NCBI GenBank assembly: GCA_016868315.1
Contig: VGHE01000005.1
Span: 133,657 to 197,656 of the forward strand
Source of the DNA: Betaproteobacteria bacterium
Lineage (GTDB): Bacteria > Bdellovibrionota_B > Oligoflexia > Silvanigrellales > Silvanigrellaceae
Direction: 5' to 3'
Length of the DNA stretch: 64,000 nt
Shown: in pieces, positions 28,955 to 37,117 of the stretch
Layout: each line of letters opens with the position of its first letter
Position numbering within the stretch: position 1 is the first letter of the stretch
Translations under genes and position numbers: made by a program
Notes under the pieces: generated by a model
Database searches by the model: none
Seen by the model: only the letters and a program-made list of their open reading frames with translations
Told to the model about the DNA's origin: nothing

Positions 28955-30079
28955 TCAGAACTGGTATGTGGCTTGAATCTCGAACTTTCCGCGCACAAGC
29001 GGAGCGGATGGAATCTTAGGGTTTTCCCCGTTGGCAGGAACCTTGGATTCAATTTTGGCTCGACTCGAGCCGACCTCGAGACCCAGACCTCCGAGCAAAC
29101 CGTACCGACCTGCCTTTTCTTCGGGCGAAACGTAAGATGCCAGCGCCATGACCTGCAACGCAAAACGCTTTTCGACCCAGCTGTACTGGGTCTCTTGGGC
29201 GTCTTTGATGATGAGGTCAGCATGCTCATAAGCAGGAGTCAGGCGAAGATAGCCGCGCAGAGGCGCCTCGATCTCTAAGTCAGAAGGTTTCCAATTGATG
29301 ATTTCCAAATCAGCCGGGAGAAGAAGCCTGAGGGAGGGATGCGCGCGAGAAAAGTCTGCGAATTCACTGATGACAGAACGAACGCGTTTTGTGTCGTTGC
29401 GGTCGAAGGGCTTGTCAGCTCCACCATCCGTGGTGATTTGCGCCGAGTGAATCTCGAAGACCATACCCTGGGTGTAGGCCGGGTAGATAGCCTCTGCATA
29501 AGCCGTGCGCAAAGTGAGGCCTGTGCGGCTAATCTTGGCGTCGTCTGAGTTCTTGTAGCTGTATGAACGAAAACCAAGCCCCGCATTGAATGATGACTGA
29601 CGCTCCGCACGGCGGAGCAACTGATATGCAGCCCCAAAGTCAACGTATGTCCAGGCGCCCGACTCAAGAAAATGCTGCCCCAGGGTGGTGACTCCAAGAG
29701 TCCGGAACGCGTCCCCACCCACAGCCAGTCCGCGGGTCAGCCCCAACATACAAGAAGACACCATTGAGCAAGAAAGCTCGGCTTCTTGGGGTAAAACGGC
29801 TGGATGAAGCCTGTTTTCGAGGAGCGAGGACGCAGGAACAGCGCGCAGAGGACTAGACAGAGTGGAAAGCGATGCGCTTCCCGAAGCTGAGCTTTGTGGC
29901 ACTGGGGACGATGCTGGCGCAGCAGCTGGTGCAGGAGCTGGCGAAGCAGTCTGCGCCCACGCAGGACGAATGACTCCTCCCAGCCCAAATCCAACTGTGC
30001 CGGAAATAAAAAATACCGAGCTAGCTGCTGCAACGGAATTCACCAGATTTGCTTTGCGGCGGTTGGTCATCATCCCCAT
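28955..30079 (-). CDS. Signal-peptide protein, probable outer-membrane beta-barrel
   Basis: It starts at an ATG with AGGGAG upstream; longer in-frame readings run back over the neighbouring promoter region and were excluded. The N-terminus MGMMTNRRKANLV is followed by a hydrophobic stretch and a signal-peptidase-like AWA site near residue 42. A Pro/Ala/Ser-rich linker covers about residues 43-85. The mature part alternates polar and hydrophobic residues, has many aromatic strand ends and finishes in phenylalanine (QATYQF), as outer-membrane barrels do. It has 374 residues. I do not recognise a family. It is divergent from the methionine S-methyltransferase gene and lies immediately upstream of rplK in the same orientation, so it may share readthrough with the ribosomal cluster. 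Confidence 0.7.
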   Translation of the reverse strand: MGMMTNRRKANLVNSVAAASSVFFISGTVGFGLGGVIRPAWAQTASPAPAPAAAPASSPVPQSSASGSASLSTLSSPLRAVPASSLLENRLHPAVLPQEAELSCSMVSSCMLGLTRGLAVGGDAFRTLGVTTLGQHFLESGAWTYVDFGAAYQLLRRAERQSSFNAGLGFRSYSYKNSDDAKISRTGLTLRTAYAEAIYPAYTQGMVFEIHSAQITTDGGADKPFDRNDTKRVRSVISEFADFSRAHPSLRLLLPADLEIINWKPSDLEIEAPLRGYLRLTPAYEHADLIIKDAQETQYSWVEKRFALQVMALASYVSPEEKAGRYGLLGGLGLEVGSSRAKIESKVPANGENPKIPSAPLVRGKFEIQATYQF

Positions 30080-30270: not shown

Positions 30271-33200
30271 ATGACACTCATCAGCCCAGAAGAATTTTTG
30301 GAACGTTGTACGGAATCGAGTCAGACAACATACGACCTTCTGAAAAAGCTACTCGACGAGGCACTCACACCCGAAGGCCGCGCAGAGACTCGACGGTTTC
30401 TGACACGCTTACGCAAAGCGTGCGATGAATCCGAGCTGAACGATGATGAGTTCCTCGCTCAGCACCACTTCACATTCAATACGCTTGCACTCGATAACGG
30501 CAGTGGTGGTGAAAATGCGCTTTGCCTGTTGCAGCTGCCCAGTATCTTTACTCCAGAAGACTGGTCTTTCACCTTCTTTGAAGGTTTGGCGCGTTACCCC
30601 GCATCAGAATTTCAAGGACGCGTTGTTGCCGAGCTTGGGTGCGGCAACGGTTGGATTTCGATCGCCCTCGCTGCGAAGGCCTCCCCGCAGAAAATTCTTG
30701 GGCTTGATATCAACCCGCGCGCCATCACATGCGCACGTTTGAACCTGCTTCTCAATGCACTCGACGACTCCGGCACACCAAAAATCGACCATGAGGGAAA
30801 AAGCCTTCTTGATCGCGTCGAATTTCACGTCTCTGACCTGCTGAGTTACCCAATCGAAAAACGTATTTCTCTCGACCGCGTGATTGGTTGCATTCCACAA
30901 GTTCTGAGTCCAGAGCCTCTCGTCGCTGCACAGTTCGTTTCCGAAGATGCCGACGATAATTTCCTTTATTCTCTGAGCAACTATTGCGAGAAACAAGGGT
31001 ACGTCGAAGACCAGTTCGGACTTGGTTTAATTGCTCGTGCTCTTGAGGAGTCCATTGCTATTAGCAAACCTGCAGCGAAAGTGATTCTAAACCTGGGTGG
31101 GCGCCCTGGGACGGCAGTCCTTGAAAGATTGCTCTCGCGGCGTGGATTTTCGGTCAAGAAAATTTGGAGCACGAAGGTCTGGCAAGCTGCAGACACAGAC
31201 ATCTTGCCACTCGTGGAAATTGAAAACATAACACCACACCGCTTTGAGTTCTTCACAAGCCTGACCAGTGATGAACCAATCTGCGCACGCACAGCGTTGG
31301 AATATCAAAAGAGGGGCGGGCAGATTGCTCACAGCTTAAGTGTCTACGAAGCTCAAATTAAATATCCGTCCGCAGTCCGTTCGATCTTCAAACTCATCGG
31401 CCAGACCGGATTCGAAGATTCACGCAACGGCCTGGATCTTGCGTTCGCAAACGACGAACTTGCCGAAGAGAAAATCAACTTCATTGGTGGCCTTGCCGAA
31501 TGGCTGCAGCAGAAACCAAATTTGCCCTATTCGGATGCTGAGGGCGAACCGCAGTTGCGTCGGCAAATTGCACAATTTCTGCGGAGCTACTGGAAAATCC
31601 CACTGACGGCTAAGAGTGTGTTCGTCACACCCAACCGTAAGGCTGCACTCAAAAATCACATCCAAATGTTGCGTCCGAGACTCACGCTGATTCAAAAAGA
31701 TCTTACCCAACACATTCCCCCTCACTGGCTCAATGCATCGAGCCGAGGCGCGAACACAACTCCAGGAATCGTGGAGGCTCCCAAACGAGTCGACGAGATC
31801 TGCAAGTTGGTTCTTTCTCTTGAGCCGCAGCTGGTTATCTGTTCGCTGCAGGATTTCGAGGTTCGCACGAGTGATGCTTTTGTCAGGCTGGTGGAGACCT
31901 GTACGCGCGTCAATGCGCAGTTGATTGTCGACCTCTCCGACCACTTCGAATTGTCGAGCCAGCCTGCACCACACGGAGTGCTCTCTTGGCTCTCCGAACA
32001 TCCTTTGCCCGGACAGGTCACGTTGCTTTTTGCGCTTGTGCGCAACCGCGTTTACAGCGATCTGGAACTGAGTTTCCTCATCACGGAAAATCTCGATTTA
32101 CTTGAACGCATGACAGCCGCAGCGGAGCTGACTTATAGCCGAACTCCGCTTCTGACACAGCGCTATTTCGGAAAGATATTTGCGGATCTTTTGAATTTTC
32201 AGCTCACCGACCTGCGCCGTTCCAAGAGCGAGCAGCTGCGCCTTCCACGCAACCCTGAAGCAACGAAAATGCTCCCCCTCCCGGAAAATATCGTTGAGGC
32301 TTTCCAGCACCCCGCAATCGCAGTGCACAGTCTCGAACTCAGCCCTCAGCATGTCAGATTGGATTATGGTGAAAACTGCCTTGCCTCACCGCTGCAACTC
32401 GATAGTGCGATCATGGAAAGTTATCTGCGTCAGAACATTTCGGCGCATGAATTAAATTGTGAAAAACCCGTGATCGAAATGGTCGAGAAACGTTTTGGAC
32501 TAAATCATTTTACAGAGAGAAACGTGGTTCTTGGGCTTGGTGTAGCCCCCCTCTTTTGCGCAGCTCTCGAAATGATTGCGTCGCGGGGCGAGACGATTGC
32601 ATTGCCCACAGGGGCATATGGTTATTTCCGAGCAGCATGCGATTACGTTGGTGTGCCCTGCGCAATGGTTCAAACGAGTGATAAAAATAGGTTCAAAATA
32701 ACCACGAATGAACTCGATCAGTTCCTCTCCGAGAAACGCTGCCAGTGGCTTTACTTGAATGGCCCGATTGTTAATCCGACCGGTGTCATATACTCCAATG
32801 GAGAAATTCTAGATTTGCTTGACGTCCTCGAGCGGCATAAATGTGGACTGATCTTCGACACCATCTTTTCAGGCCTCGAATTCAACGGAAAACATACGCA
32901 TCTTAGCCTCAGCCGCTTCCGCCAGGCACGTTCCGAACAACCGCCTGCATCCAAAATGATTGTTCTGGGTGGGCTGTCCAAGGAACTCGCTGCAGGGGGG
33001 CTACGCTTGGGCTGGGCTGTTACCGAAGACGACGAACTTGCACAAAACCTGAGAGCTCGCGTCACCGGAACCCCACACGCCACAGTGCGATATGCAGCAC
33101 GGAAAATTTACTTGGCTCTCAACGACGCGAATCATTCCGTCCAAAAGGAACTTGAGCAGCAAAAAGCCACACTCCGCAGCAGAGCTGAGAAACTCACCAC

Positions 33201-33501
33201 TGCTCTGACTGAATTGGGCTGGGACGTTATTGAACCAGAAGGGGGATTGTTCGTCTGTGCCTCACCTCAAAAGTACCTCGAAGGTTTGGGGCGCGATGTT
33301 CCCGAGAGCCAACTCCGCACGGCAGCCGACGATATCGCAACACAATTACGCATCCAGACGGGACTGCTGGTTAACAGCGCCACGTGGACGGGGCTGCCGC
33401 ACCAGTTGCGTTTTGTCATCAGTGTGGAAGAAGAAACCTTGGAGTCCGGAATTGAGCGACTGAAACAATTCGACTCAAATTGGCAAAACCAAGGTCGATA
33501 A
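30271..33501 (+). CDS. Methionine S-methyltransferase, plant-type two-domain enzyme
   Basis: Predicted to methylate L-methionine with S-adenosylmethionine, giving S-methylmethionine (EC 2.1.1.12). Architecture and length (1,076 residues) equal the plant enzyme: an N-terminal methyltransferase and a C-terminal class-I aminotransferase-like domain. The plant signature blocks are present: IFTPEDWSFTFFEGL (about 92-106), VAELGCGNGWISIA (SAM site, GCGNG at 123-127), GLDINPRA, LLNALDD, FLYSLSNYCEKQGYVED, QFGLGLIARALEE, then PHRFEFF and ICARTA. The C-terminal domain keeps NGPIVNPTGVIYSN, FDTIFSGLEF and a Schiff-base-type lysine, Lys904, in GGLSKELAAGG. I start it at the ATG with GGGGAG upstream; this aligns with the plant N-terminus, and a TTG eight codons earlier is less likely. 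No dimethylsulfoniopropionate pathway gene is adjacent. The role of the aminotransferase-like half is unclear even in plants. Confidence 0.85.
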   Translation: MTLISPEEFLERCTESSQTTYDLLKKLLDEALTPEGRAETRRFLTRLRKACDESELNDDEFLAQHHFTFNTLALDNGSGGENALCLLQLPSIFTPEDWSFTFFEGLARYPASEFQGRVVAELGCGNGWISIALAAKASPQKILGLDINPRAITCARLNLLLNALDDSGTPKIDHEGKSLLDRVEFHVSDLLSYPIEKRISLDRVIGCIPQVLSPEPLVAAQFVSEDADDNFLYSLSNYCEKQGYVEDQFGLGLIARALEESIAISKPAAKVILNLGGRPGTAVLERLLSRRGFSVKKIWSTKVWQAADTDILPLVEIENITPHRFEFFTSLTSDEPICARTALEYQKRGGQIAHSLSVYEAQIKYPSAVRSIFKLIGQTGFEDSRNGLDLAFANDELAEEKINFIGGLAEWLQQKPNLPYSDAEGEPQLRRQIAQFLRSYWKIPLTAKSVFVTPNRKAALKNHIQMLRPRLTLIQKDLTQHIPPHWLNASSRGANTTPGIVEAPKRVDEICKLVLSLEPQLVICSLQDFEVRTSDAFVRLVETCTRVNAQLIVDLSDHFELSSQPAPHGVLSWLSEHPLPGQVTLLFALVRNRVYSDLELSFLITENLDLLERMTAAAELTYSRTPLLTQRYFGKIFADLLNFQLTDLRRSKSEQLRLPRNPEATKMLPLPENIVEAFQHPAIAVHSLELSPQHVRLDYGENCLASPLQLDSAIMESYLRQNISAHELNCEKPVIEMVEKRFGLNHFTERNVVLGLGVAPLFCAALEMIASRGETIALPTGAYGYFRAACDYVGVPCAMVQTSDKNRFKITTNELDQFLSEKRCQWLYLNGPIVNPTGVIYSNGEILDLLDVLERHKCGLIFDTIFSGLEFNGKHTHLSLSRFRQARSEQPPASKMIVLGGLSKELAAGGLRLGWAVTEDDELAQNLRARVTGTPHATVRYAARKIYLALNDANHSVQKELEQQKATLRSRAEKLTTALTELGWDVIEPEGGLFVCASPQKYLEGLGRDVPESQLRTAADDIATQLRIQTGLLVNSATWTGLPHQLRFVISVEEETLESGIERLKQFDSNWQNQGR

Positions 33502-33540: not shown

Positions 33541-34206
33541 ATGCGTATTGCCATTTCGGGCCACAGCGGATGCGGAAACACCACGGCGACCACAAATGTC
33601 GGTCAGGCGTTAGGGTTGAAGATAGTGAATTACACTTTCCGCGACCTCGCCAGAGAGCTCGAAATGAGCTTCGATGACCTTCACAAGCAGGCTCCAACAA
33701 ATTTCATTTTTGATTATCTGACCGATCTGAAATGCATCCGCTCAGCATTGACGGAAAATATCGTGCTCGGCACGCGCCTTGCTGCCTGGCTCATGGATGC
33801 CGATCTGAGAATCTGGCTTCACGCGCCTCTCGAAGAAAGAGCGCGCCGCATCAACAAGCGCGAAACCGAAAAAGCTGCGACCTACGAATCGGTTCTCTAC
33901 AAAACCCTGAAGCGAGATGAACAAAACCGAAAACGCTACTTGCAGCTTTATGGTCTAGATATTCACGACCACTCTGACTTCGACATTACCATCAATACCG
34001 ACAAACTCACGGCAGAGCAGGTTTCGAGCTTGATTGTTGCTGCAGCGCAGTGGGCTAGCAAAAACCAACTCGAGCGCAAGAACATTCACATCAAGCGCAT
34101 TCGTGAAATCATCGCCGACAAACTCAAAGTCTCTGAACAGCAAATCCTTGACCCGAACCATCCTATCGATGTGAAGGAAATATACGCGCGTCTGAATAAA
34201 GTCTAA
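33541..34206 (+). CDS. Archaeal-type cytidylate kinase family protein
   Basis: Predicted (d)CMP kinase of the compact P-loop family typical of archaea and some bacteria, not the larger E. coli Cmk. MRIAISGHSGCGNTTAT carries the P-loop, in which the usual GKTT is GNTT, as in bacterial members of this group that I recall. A VLGTRLAAWLMDADLRIWL strand-helix and RARRINKRE (lid arginines) follow. The last 45 residues (after about 175) form a charged extension (KNIHIKRIREIIADKL). It has 221 residues. The stop overlaps the stop of the convergent downstream gene by 4 nt. The function as CMP kinase is family-based; a related small-molecule kinase is possible. Confidence 0.65.
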   Translation: MRIAISGHSGCGNTTATTNVGQALGLKIVNYTFRDLARELEMSFDDLHKQAPTNFIFDYLTDLKCIRSALTENIVLGTRLAAWLMDADLRIWLHAPLEERARRINKRETEKAATYESVLYKTLKRDEQNRKRYLQLYGLDIHDHSDFDITINTDKLTAEQVSSLIVAAAQWASKNQLERKNIHIKRIREIIADKLKVSEQQILDPNHPIDVKEIYARLNKV

Positions 34207-35138
34207 AGACGCTCAGACCAGCGCAAGCCAAAGCTAGTCTGCTGCAACTCAAGATCGACCGCATCGAGGACTTCACCTGTACTGGTGTACTCCGCCGCGA
34301 TAGCATCTGCGTGTCGGGATTTGCTTTCCCAAGTGAATGACAGCTGATGCTTGTGGGGAGCATTGCCCCCTTGCGCATCTCGCCACTGCACACTCGAAAA
34401 ATCAACACTGAATGCAGCGGAAATCATTTGACCGGTGACACTGCGGTCGGGCTGAAACTTCACCCGGTTCGCTGTTGCTGAGCGACTGACCGGAAAAGCA
34501 TCGTGCTTGACAGCTGTTTTACCGAAGCCAAGCCACGCGTAGTCGGCACCAAGACCGAAGGACACAGCAGAATCAGCGACGGTGGTGTCCTGTTGAATCA
34601 GCGTACCAGCCCTCAGTGGAACCCCATAAAGAGCAAGCGTACCGCGAGGATAATGAATACGCTCATAGAGTGCCTCTGCAGAGCCCAACCAACGCAAACG
34701 GGTGTTTTCGGCCAAACTGAACTGTTTCTCAAGTCCAGCCTCAAAAGCAAGATCAAACCAAGAAACAGCTTGGAGGTCGTAACTTCTTCCAGCCGCAGGG
34801 AAGATGTTCTTCAACTTGAGCGAGTAAAACGATCGCGTGAACAGGCTCTCGGAGCTGAAATTGCGGTGCACTCCGAAGCGAAATGCGGTGAAGCGCAAGT
34901 TGTTCTCGTAGGAACCAAACCCTGGCGGACTATAAGGGAGCGTAACGTGACCCATTCCCACCGCGACAGCAATTTCCGGATGCATGTTTCCATCAGAGGT
35001 GCCGTCACGCGGTTCCTCGGTATTAGACGACACCAACTCGAAATCTTCTGTGGGCACAATCTCGGCCAAAGCTTTCTGAGGGGTCACAATTTGAACCAGA
35101 AGAGCTGCGAGAGCGCATTGAATAAAACCATAATTCAC
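34203..35138 (-). CDS. Signal-peptide envelope protein, probable beta-barrel
   Basis: The start is a GTG overlapping the stop of the OsmC-CinA gene (GTGA), with GGGAG about 9 nt upstream. It gives a clean signal peptide (MNYGFIQCALAALLVQIV..., ALA cleavage near residue 25). The 311-residue product is rich in alternating hydrophobic/aromatic strands and Gly/Ser/Thr turns, consistent with an outer-membrane barrel of 10-12 strands. The last strand ends FGLRWSERL without a terminal aromatic, so the barrel call is tentative. I do not recognise a family. Translational coupling to the upstream fusion gene indicates co-expression. Confidence 0.65.
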   Translation of the reverse strand: MNYGFIQCALAALLVQIVTPQKALAEIVPTEDFELVSSNTEEPRDGTSDGNMHPEIAVAVGMGHVTLPYSPPGFGSYENNLRFTAFRFGVHRNFSSESLFTRSFYSLKLKNIFPAAGRSYDLQAVSWFDLAFEAGLEKQFSLAENTRLRWLGSAEALYERIHYPRGTLALYGVPLRAGTLIQQDTTVADSAVSFGLGADYAWLGFGKTAVKHDAFPVSRSATANRVKFQPDRSVTGQMISAAFSVDFSSVQWRDAQGGNAPHKHQLSFTWESKSRHADAIAAEYTSTGEVLDAVDLELQQTSFGLRWSERL

Positions 35139-37045
35139 GATTTGACGCTCCCTAAGCTTTCGGCAACACCAACAAGTGTGCACAGCGCAAAGACGCTGGC
35201 GCGTTTTTGGATAAGTTCGCGTGGAAGATGTTTACCGAAACGCTTCTCAGCGCACAAAAGCACATCTGAAGATTGCGGCTGACCAGTGACACGCTCCCAG
35301 CCCTGAAGACTCAGAGATTCAAGCAGCGCAGAGCTCTGCAGACGCCCCCACAATCCTTCACTCAGTGAGACTGCAAAACAGACTGTGCCGACCGGTTTTT
35401 CTGCAGTTTCGCCACCAGGACCTGCAATGCCGGTCACCGACAGCGCCACGGCCGAATCAAAAACACGCCGCGCTCCCAGAGCCATCTCGGCTGCTGTGGC
35501 GTTGCTCACAGCACCGTGCTTGCGCAAGGTCTCATTCGAAACACCCAACAAAGTGGCTTTGGACTGATTCGAATAGGCGACCACTCCACCCGAAAAGACT
35601 GCCGAGATTCCCGGAAAAGCAGTCAGCTCAGCTGCAATCCGACCACCCGTGCACGATTCGGCGAGCGCGAGGCGCAGATCCGCTCGAGCGAAATATTCGT
35701 GCAGACGCTCGACCAGCGTTTGGGTTCCACGGTACAGCAGGCGCTGACCAAAAATTGCCTCAATGCGATTCACTTCAGAAGCAACATCGCATTCATCAGC
35801 CGCGGCTGTAGCCTCTTCGTTTGGAGCACTCTGTTCTGCTTTAAAACTATAAGAAACGTATCCAGCATGAGCCTGGTAGGACACATGCAGGTTCGGATAC
35901 TTTCCGAGAAGGTCATGCTCAACAGCTGACAACTGAGTCTGCAGCGCTGATTCTCCTATGCCCCACACATGCCAAGGACCCCATTCACGGAACGTACGTT
36001 CCGCTGACCTGAGATGCTTTTTAACTTCCTGCAGGAACATCTGTTCACACTCCCATGGAACACCCGGAAGCGCGAAAAGTGTGCTGCTGTGCTCTGGATA
36101 AGATTTGGTAACAAAGAATCCTGCGGCGGTTCCAAAACCATTCGGTAAAATACCTGCCCCTGAAGGAAGCATCGCCTGCTTGCGGTTGCTCTCCGGAATT
36201 TCAGTTCGGCCGAGCAACTGAAATGCTCTCACACAGATATCCCATGCCTCTTGAGAGAACTCGAGAGGAACCTTGAGAGTCTCGGCCACGACTTCAGCCG
36301 TGAGGTCATCCTGAGTTGGCCCAAGTCCACCCGTCATGAACACAAACTCGTGCACAGCCGCCAGTTCATTCAAGGTCTTGCCAAGCATCGTGCGATCATC
36401 GCCCACCATGCGAACTTCGTTGACCTGAATTCCCAGACGATTGAGTTCCTTGATAATGAAGCGCCCATTTGTGTCAGCAGTTTTACCCGCAAGAAGCTCA
36501 TTTCCTGTCAGCAGAACAGCAGCGCGCAGCTGAGATTGGTTTGCACGAACTGAAGATGAGTTATCCTTTTCGAGTTCCTCGAGAGCCCGAACAAACTCGA
36601 CAGAGAGGTCATTCCCATTGAGGAGCAGACGGGGCTCAAACTCACAACCGCTGCGCTTGATCATGGCGCTGACACCACAATAACGGGCATAGGAGAGAGC
36701 TGCTGCGCGCAAAACCCGATCGGATTCCAGACCCTCTCCGAAAAACCTGTAGGTCAAAACACAATGCGAAAACACCCGCGGATGCTCATCGGTCACGGAA
36801 AATTCCGTGTCGATCAGAAGCTCCTGCAATGGTTGCCGCATTTTTTTTAGAATGGAGACAACATCCACGCCGGTGCAACCCGCCACGCCCATGGCGACGA
36901 GATCTTTGGGCGAGTGATGACGCTTGGGTACTCCGGGCGTCGATGATGCACCCATCAGGGTGCGCAAGCCATCCGCAGAGATTCCCTCGAACTCAAGCTC
37001 GTTGGGCGGCTCATTTTTGAGCCATCGTACCGACATTTTAATCAT
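35135..37045 (-). CDS. OsmC-CinA fusion: peroxidase-like domain plus NMN deamidase protein
   Basis: One 636-residue chain with three parts. Residues 1-150 are an OsmC-like domain with its two thiols (Cys57 in GCTGVDVVSIL and Cys123 in YCGVSAMI), a fold known for organic hydroperoxide reduction. Residues about 175-345 are the MoaB/MogA-like (COG1058) domain of CinA (LLTGNELLAGKTADTNG, MTGGLGPTQDDLTAE). Residues about 455-600 are the PncC nicotinamide-mononucleotide amidohydrolase domain (ALAESCTGGRIAAEL, GGVVAYSNQSKATLLGV, VTGIAGPGG). The COG1058-PncC pair is ordinary CinA; the OsmC head is not. The start ATG has GGAGG seven nt upstream. No stop or frameshift separates the domains. A 45-residue Cys-containing tail follows PncC. 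CinA proteins act in NAD salvage, ADP-ribose turnover or competence. Confidence 0.85.
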   Translation of the reverse strand: MIKMSVRWLKNEPPNELEFEGISADGLRTLMGASSTPGVPKRHHSPKDLVAMGVAGCTGVDVVSILKKMRQPLQELLIDTEFSVTDEHPRVFSHCVLTYRFFGEGLESDRVLRAAALSYARYCGVSAMIKRSGCEFEPRLLLNGNDLSVEFVRALEELEKDNSSSVRANQSQLRAAVLLTGNELLAGKTADTNGRFIIKELNRLGIQVNEVRMVGDDRTMLGKTLNELAAVHEFVFMTGGLGPTQDDLTAEVVAETLKVPLEFSQEAWDICVRAFQLLGRTEIPESNRKQAMLPSGAGILPNGFGTAAGFFVTKSYPEHSSTLFALPGVPWECEQMFLQEVKKHLRSAERTFREWGPWHVWGIGESALQTQLSAVEHDLLGKYPNLHVSYQAHAGYVSYSFKAEQSAPNEEATAAADECDVASEVNRIEAIFGQRLLYRGTQTLVERLHEYFARADLRLALAESCTGGRIAAELTAFPGISAVFSGGVVAYSNQSKATLLGVSNETLRKHGAVSNATAAEMALGARRVFDSAVALSVTGIAGPGGETAEKPVGTVCFAVSLSEGLWGRLQSSALLESLSLQGWERVTGQPQSSDVLLCAEKRFGKHLPRELIQKRASVFALCTLVGVAESLGSVKS

Positions 37046-37117
37046 GACAGTCCTCCGCTTGTGCCCGGGCACGTGTCCAACACTGCTCGGGATTTCCCAC
37101 AGCGGGTTCCTGCAGAG

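Follow-up and report, generated by a model that had tools for sequence, protein, structure and literature searches.

A predicted plant-type methionine S-methyltransferase in a Silvanigrellaceae-like bacterium, with one decayed and one PLP-site-bearing aminotransferase domain

The methionine S-methyltransferase (MMT) of plants carries a large aminotransferase-like half, for which the literature cited here offers no explanation. A gene in a 64,000-nucleotide stretch of bacterial DNA (hereafter the window) raises the question anew: what does this long frame encode, and what might its aminotransferase half be doing in a bacterium? The original prediction identified a plant-type MMT and presented its occurrence in a bacterium as new. 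We agree with the family assignment, given the match in layout over the full length and an N-terminal domain whose closest solved relative is the bacterial enzyme MmtN. The premise of novelty is outdated, since plant-like, dual-domain MMTs have been published from some Deltaproteobacteria and Oligoflexia and grouped with those of plants as Group III (Peng et al. 2022, PMC9135737). The window MMT is thus a member of a published kind, one whose bacterial role was called difficult to predict in the same study. Our analysis makes it likely that the gene encodes a Group III MMT that combines an MmtN-homologous methyltransferase with a decayed and a PLP-site-bearing aminotransferase fold. We predict that the enzyme makes S-methylmethionine (SMM). 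Within the family, the gene most simply traces back to a single ancestral site and can be done without.

The gene (30271 to 33501, plus strand) is intact. Its frame of 1076 aa is uninterrupted from an ATG at 30271 to a stop at 33499-33501, and a ribosome-binding-like GGGGAG lies directly 5' of the start; the longer form of the listed open reading frame begins at an upstream TTG (30247). The frame, the sequence blocks quoted in the original prediction and Lys904 were all found in place. Full-length conservation in other genomes, at 71, 57, 41, and 39% identity, puts the frame far above chance. In addition, the contig that holds it is 197 kb long, in a genome of 3.24 Mb, and the gene lies beside rplK/rplA/rplJ/rpoB in an order that recurs in relatives, which rules out contamination or misassembly of the locus. 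Pfam recognizes a methyltransferase fold at about residues 115 to 166 and Aminotran_1_2 at 744 to 1064 (E 3.6e-39), with no assignment for the stretch in between. We nevertheless distinguish three domains: a methyltransferase (1-332), a decayed aminotransferase fold (about 340-650), and a C-terminal aminotransferase fold (691-1076). The two-domain order of the original prediction overlooked the domain in the middle. The layout is that of Group III, an MmtN-like methyltransferase followed by an aminotransferase in a protein of about 115 kDa, and not the single domain of about 300 aa that typifies MmtN (Group I/II).

The N-terminal domain (30271 to 31266, plus strand) is a SAM-dependent methyltransferase homologous to MmtN. 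Its top match in the PDB is MmtN of Roseovarius indicus (7vvv), with an E value of 2.1e-12 for the single domain and 8e-13 when it was used as a profile. A GxGxG motif is present as GCGNG at residues 123 to 127, and the SAM-binding residues published for MmtN (D69, S101, L102, and C121) align with the invariant MMT columns D146, S188, L190, and C207. This is also the best-conserved part of the protein, with a mean column identity of 67% and 50 to 79% identity to the other bacterial sequences. The residues that contact methionine in MmtN align less clearly: the published methionine-binding E127 falls opposite S213, R132 has no clear equivalent, and E250 lies outside the alignment, with E326 as a possible counterpart in MMT. 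For this reason, we take the substrate specificity of MMT from its family rather than from its site.

The middle domain (about residues 340 to 653; 31288 to 32230, plus strand) was recognized mainly through its predicted structure. A profile built from 16 sequences returned weak matches, mostly to fold-type-I PLP enzymes (E 0.09-0.6). When the domain was modeled alone, pLDDT reached 80 to 96 through much of the core, and the model matched aminotransferases both in Foldseek (E 6e-9, probability 1.00) and in VIA (Z 14.9, rmsd 4.1 Å over 206 residues). Profile comparison with the C-terminal domain of the same protein gave an E value of 0.0023 at a probability of only 12.7%, pairing VRNRVYSDLEL of the middle domain with LSKELAAGGLRL of the C-terminal domain. 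The catalytic lysine of class I/II aminotransferases is not retained, as its position holds R591 in the window and R, K, H, or Y among relatives. The domain is thus a second fold-type-I aminotransferase, and a decayed one.

The C-terminal domain (32341 to 33498, plus strand) presents a different picture. An aminotransferase fold is evident even in the full-length model (Z about 19), whose overall confidence is low, and the lysine, asparagine, aspartate, and two arginines of class I/II aminotransferases are all there (K904, N835, D863, R912, and R1047). Together with Y783, these residues are identical in 16 of 16 bacterial sequences, including those of cyanobacteria, which are about 40% identical to the window MMT. 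The six columns, named in advance, all fall among the 47 of 386 that are invariant (chance P 2.4e-6); their choice and numbering follow aspartate aminotransferase. One more sequence, the 17th (L070), was compared at four motifs and matches at each. The original prediction that the aminotransferase half may be functional is thus supported as a possibility, since Lys904 and five further PLP-site residues are kept in every bacterial relative examined. The half in fact comprises two aminotransferase folds, and just the C-terminal one looks competent. One departure from the standard site is the absence of a tyrosine three residues past the aspartate, where all sequences have Phe866. The position corresponds to Tyr225 of aspartate aminotransferase, and the substitution would weaken ordinary transamination. 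Close solved relatives of the domain include ACC synthases and C-S lyases, although general amino acid aminotransferases outscore ACC synthase.

Comparison with plants relied on a single, presumed sequence of Arabidopsis MMT1. It is 38% identical to the window MMT overall and 53% identical in the methyltransferase domain, the latter being 27% identical to MmtN. The presumed plant sequence is roughly equidistant from all bacterial groups (35-40% identity), and at the positions of Y783, N835, K904, and R912 it has N, S, L, and K, respectively, which we treat only as a lead. If it is true to the real one, the PLP site would have been kept in bacteria and lost in plants. In a tree containing this presumed sequence as the sole one from plants, the 17 long sequences fell together and away from MmtN on an unsupported backbone. 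For the methyltransferase domains of plant MMT and MmtN, the literature gives an identity of about 30%.

When single genomes representing each species were scanned with six short peptide seeds, at least five full-length relatives of the gene were recovered, in a Silvanigrella MAG (71%), a proteobacterial MAG (57%), and three Xenococcaceae cyanobacteria (39-41%). Within the phylum, MMT is carried by 13 of 58 whole genomes, 11 of them among the 14 of its own family (Silvanigrellaceae-like Bdellovibrionota) and two among the seven of a second family of the class. In one genome (G059), the gene appears as two tblastn pieces owing to an in-frame insertion, which is present in L007 as well. Viral contigs encoded no full-length relative and plasmid matches were confined to the aminotransferase part, by which a virus- or plasmid-borne MMT was ruled out. 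Cyanobacterial carriers amounted to 1/386 evenly drawn genomes, the one being the query genome itself, and to 4/27 in one family. These are no closer (36-37%) to the presumed plant sequence than other carriers are, and a plastid or cyanobacterial source of the plant gene is unsupported. Cyanobacteria are unmentioned in the main text of PMC9135737.

The surroundings of the gene speak to its history in the family. Divergent from MMT lies a gene (28955 to 30073, minus strand) for an exported, outer-membrane-like protein of 372 aa without a Pfam match, and this arrangement is found in three genera of the family. The neighbor was detected in 14 of 14 family genomes, next to rplK or MMT wherever its position could be seen, except at L069, where the contig ends. 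Three genomes (G045, G047, and G055) have no MMT and yet retain the exported-protein gene, which we therefore read as a marker of the site and not as a partner of MMT; the place of MMT is taken by a kinase gene, gatCAB-like subunit genes, or a helicase-like gene. MMT-less sites in three relatives correspond to L067 1-1755, L068 5985-11504, and L069 1663-5181. The simplest reading of these sequences is a single ancestral MMT site in the family followed by losses, which would make the gene old, vertically inherited, and dispensable.

Other neighbors vary by genus. A cytidylate-kinase-like gene (33541 to 34206, plus strand) begins 39 bp downstream of MMT, and since it is directly adjacent only in the genus of the window, its functional link to MMT is weak. 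In another genus, an acetate-CoA ligase gene follows closely 3' of MMT (L030 12728-14698, L029 12928-14919, and L031 12831-14759), touching or overlapping it in L029 and L030 and identified as AcsA in L030; a conserved small membrane protein of about 100 aa is encoded just upstream of MMT in that genus. As the ligase and the small membrane protein flank MMT in this one genus only, and no neighbor is conserved beyond the family, an operon-based function for MMT was ruled out. Beside the kinase gene is a second exported protein (34203 to 35183, minus strand), which appears to be evolving fast, given an identity of 30 to 38% between congeneric genomes. In a further single frame (35135 to 37072, minus strand), an OsmC domain is fused ahead of a CinA-type protein (MoCF_biosynth plus CinA), an unusual fusion of which L006 and L004 have full-length counterparts.

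How such an enzyme might work can be sketched from its domains. The N-terminal domain would bind SAM through D146, S188, L190, and C207, and a methyl group would pass to the methionine sulfur through proximity and desolvation, the mechanism that has been put forward for MmtN, yielding SMM and SAH. SMM would then be formed in the organism; the partner expected for its metabolism, a dedicated SMM:homocysteine methyltransferase, was not found. Less surely, the two aminotransferase-fold domains may pair within the chain as the subunits of an ordinary aminotransferase dimer do, one dead and the other capable of binding PLP. Such pairing is speculation because the model of the whole protein is of modest quality (pLDDT 63). 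The live domain might help to bring methionine or SMM into position or gate its passage, or else might act on it chemically.

What the aminotransferase domains contribute divides the possible explanations. They could be purely structural or allosteric, with PLP, if bound, serving as a sensor or persisting as a fossil in an enzyme that makes SMM only. The middle copy has already decayed, and the presumed Arabidopsis sequence is without the lysine (L instead), the asparagine, the tyrosine, and one arginine, although plant MMTs are active (PMC11464771). Yet K904 and its partners are strictly conserved across bacterial groups that are about 40% identical, which implies that PLP binding is still under selection in bacteria, and we judge the purely structural account to have slightly less than an even chance. 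An enzyme with two activities is a rather unlikely alternative. In that case, SMM would be made and then used by the PLP domain, either through transamination to 4-dimethylsulfonio-2-oxobutyrate or through elimination of dimethyl sulfide in the manner of ACC synthase, which acts on the related sulfonium SAM. An intact PLP site in all bacterial sequences, cyanobacteria included, fits this proposal, as do the ACC synthases and C-S lyases among the close solved relatives and the failure to find a dedicated SMM-consuming methyltransferase. It is harder to reconcile with the higher scores of general amino acid aminotransferases, with Phe866 at the Tyr225 position, with the lack of conserved pathway genes beside MMT, and with the report that DMSP was made by only one of four tested bacteria with a Group III MMT (PMC9135737). 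The broader scenario, in which bacterial Group III MMTs process their sulfonium product at a PLP site formed by a live and dead domain pair and plants inherited the fusion but lost its PLP activity, seems to us improbable.

Two further possibilities concern the product and its fate. SMM could be returned to methionine by a homocysteine methyltransferase, as in the plant cycle, controlling SAM levels. PF02574 proteins do occur in every MMT-bearing genome examined. The two in the window genome, however, were identified as MetH and as a bifunctional homocysteine methyltransferase/MTHFR (NF006396), and the score against the dedicated homocysteine S-methyltransferase NF007020 stayed well under its cut-off (93.8 versus 215 bits). 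PF02574 proteins of the same two sizes, with identities judged from length, are found in other carriers and also in MMT-less relatives, cyanobacterial carriers have MetH only, and the genes are unlinked to MMT. Because no dedicated SMM:homocysteine methyltransferase was found, a plant-style cycle is unsupported, and we consider it doubtful; the bifunctional homocysteine methyltransferase/MTHFR might accept SMM. Alternatively, the protein could belong to some other methyltransferase-aminotransferase family, one whose methyl acceptor is a sulfur compound other than methionine. The unclear conservation of the MmtN methionine-contact residues allows for this, but the reading is very unlikely in view of a methyltransferase domain that is the best-conserved part of the protein, has MmtN as its best solved match, and shows the 53% identity to its presumed Arabidopsis counterpart. 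Moreover, most SAM- and Met-binding residues are conserved across MMTs in the published alignment (PMC9135737).

With an intact PLP site and a decayed second copy in bacteria, the unexplained aminotransferase half of MMT becomes testable. The role of bacterial Group III enzymes also gains two constraints, namely that the search for a dedicated recycling enzyme came up empty and that members of one family can do without the gene. The decayed middle domain, the strict conservation of the bacterial PLP site, the cyanobacterial carriers, and the family-level history are useful increments.

Among known systems, MmtN (Group I, PDB 7vvv) shares with the window MMT a homologous methyltransferase domain of about 30% identity and the residues of the SAM site. 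It differs in being a single-domain trimer of 305 aa without aminotransferase domains, compared with three domains in 1076 aa, and the methionine-contact residues are not clearly shared. The bacterial Group III MMTs, compared by their published description, agree in layout, length class, and taxonomic setting, and neither they nor the window MMT show linkage to genes for DMSP, NRPS, or the Met cycle (PMC9135737). PLP aminotransferases of class I/II, ACC synthase among them, have their fold and PLP-site residues in common with the C-terminal domain and their fold alone in common with the middle domain. In contrast to those enzymes, the aminotransferase units of MMT are fused in tandem after a methyltransferase, the first copy is decayed, and Phe replaces the PLP-contacting Tyr. 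Plant MMT (Arabidopsis MMT1), at about 1070 aa, has the same domain order as the window MMT over its full length.
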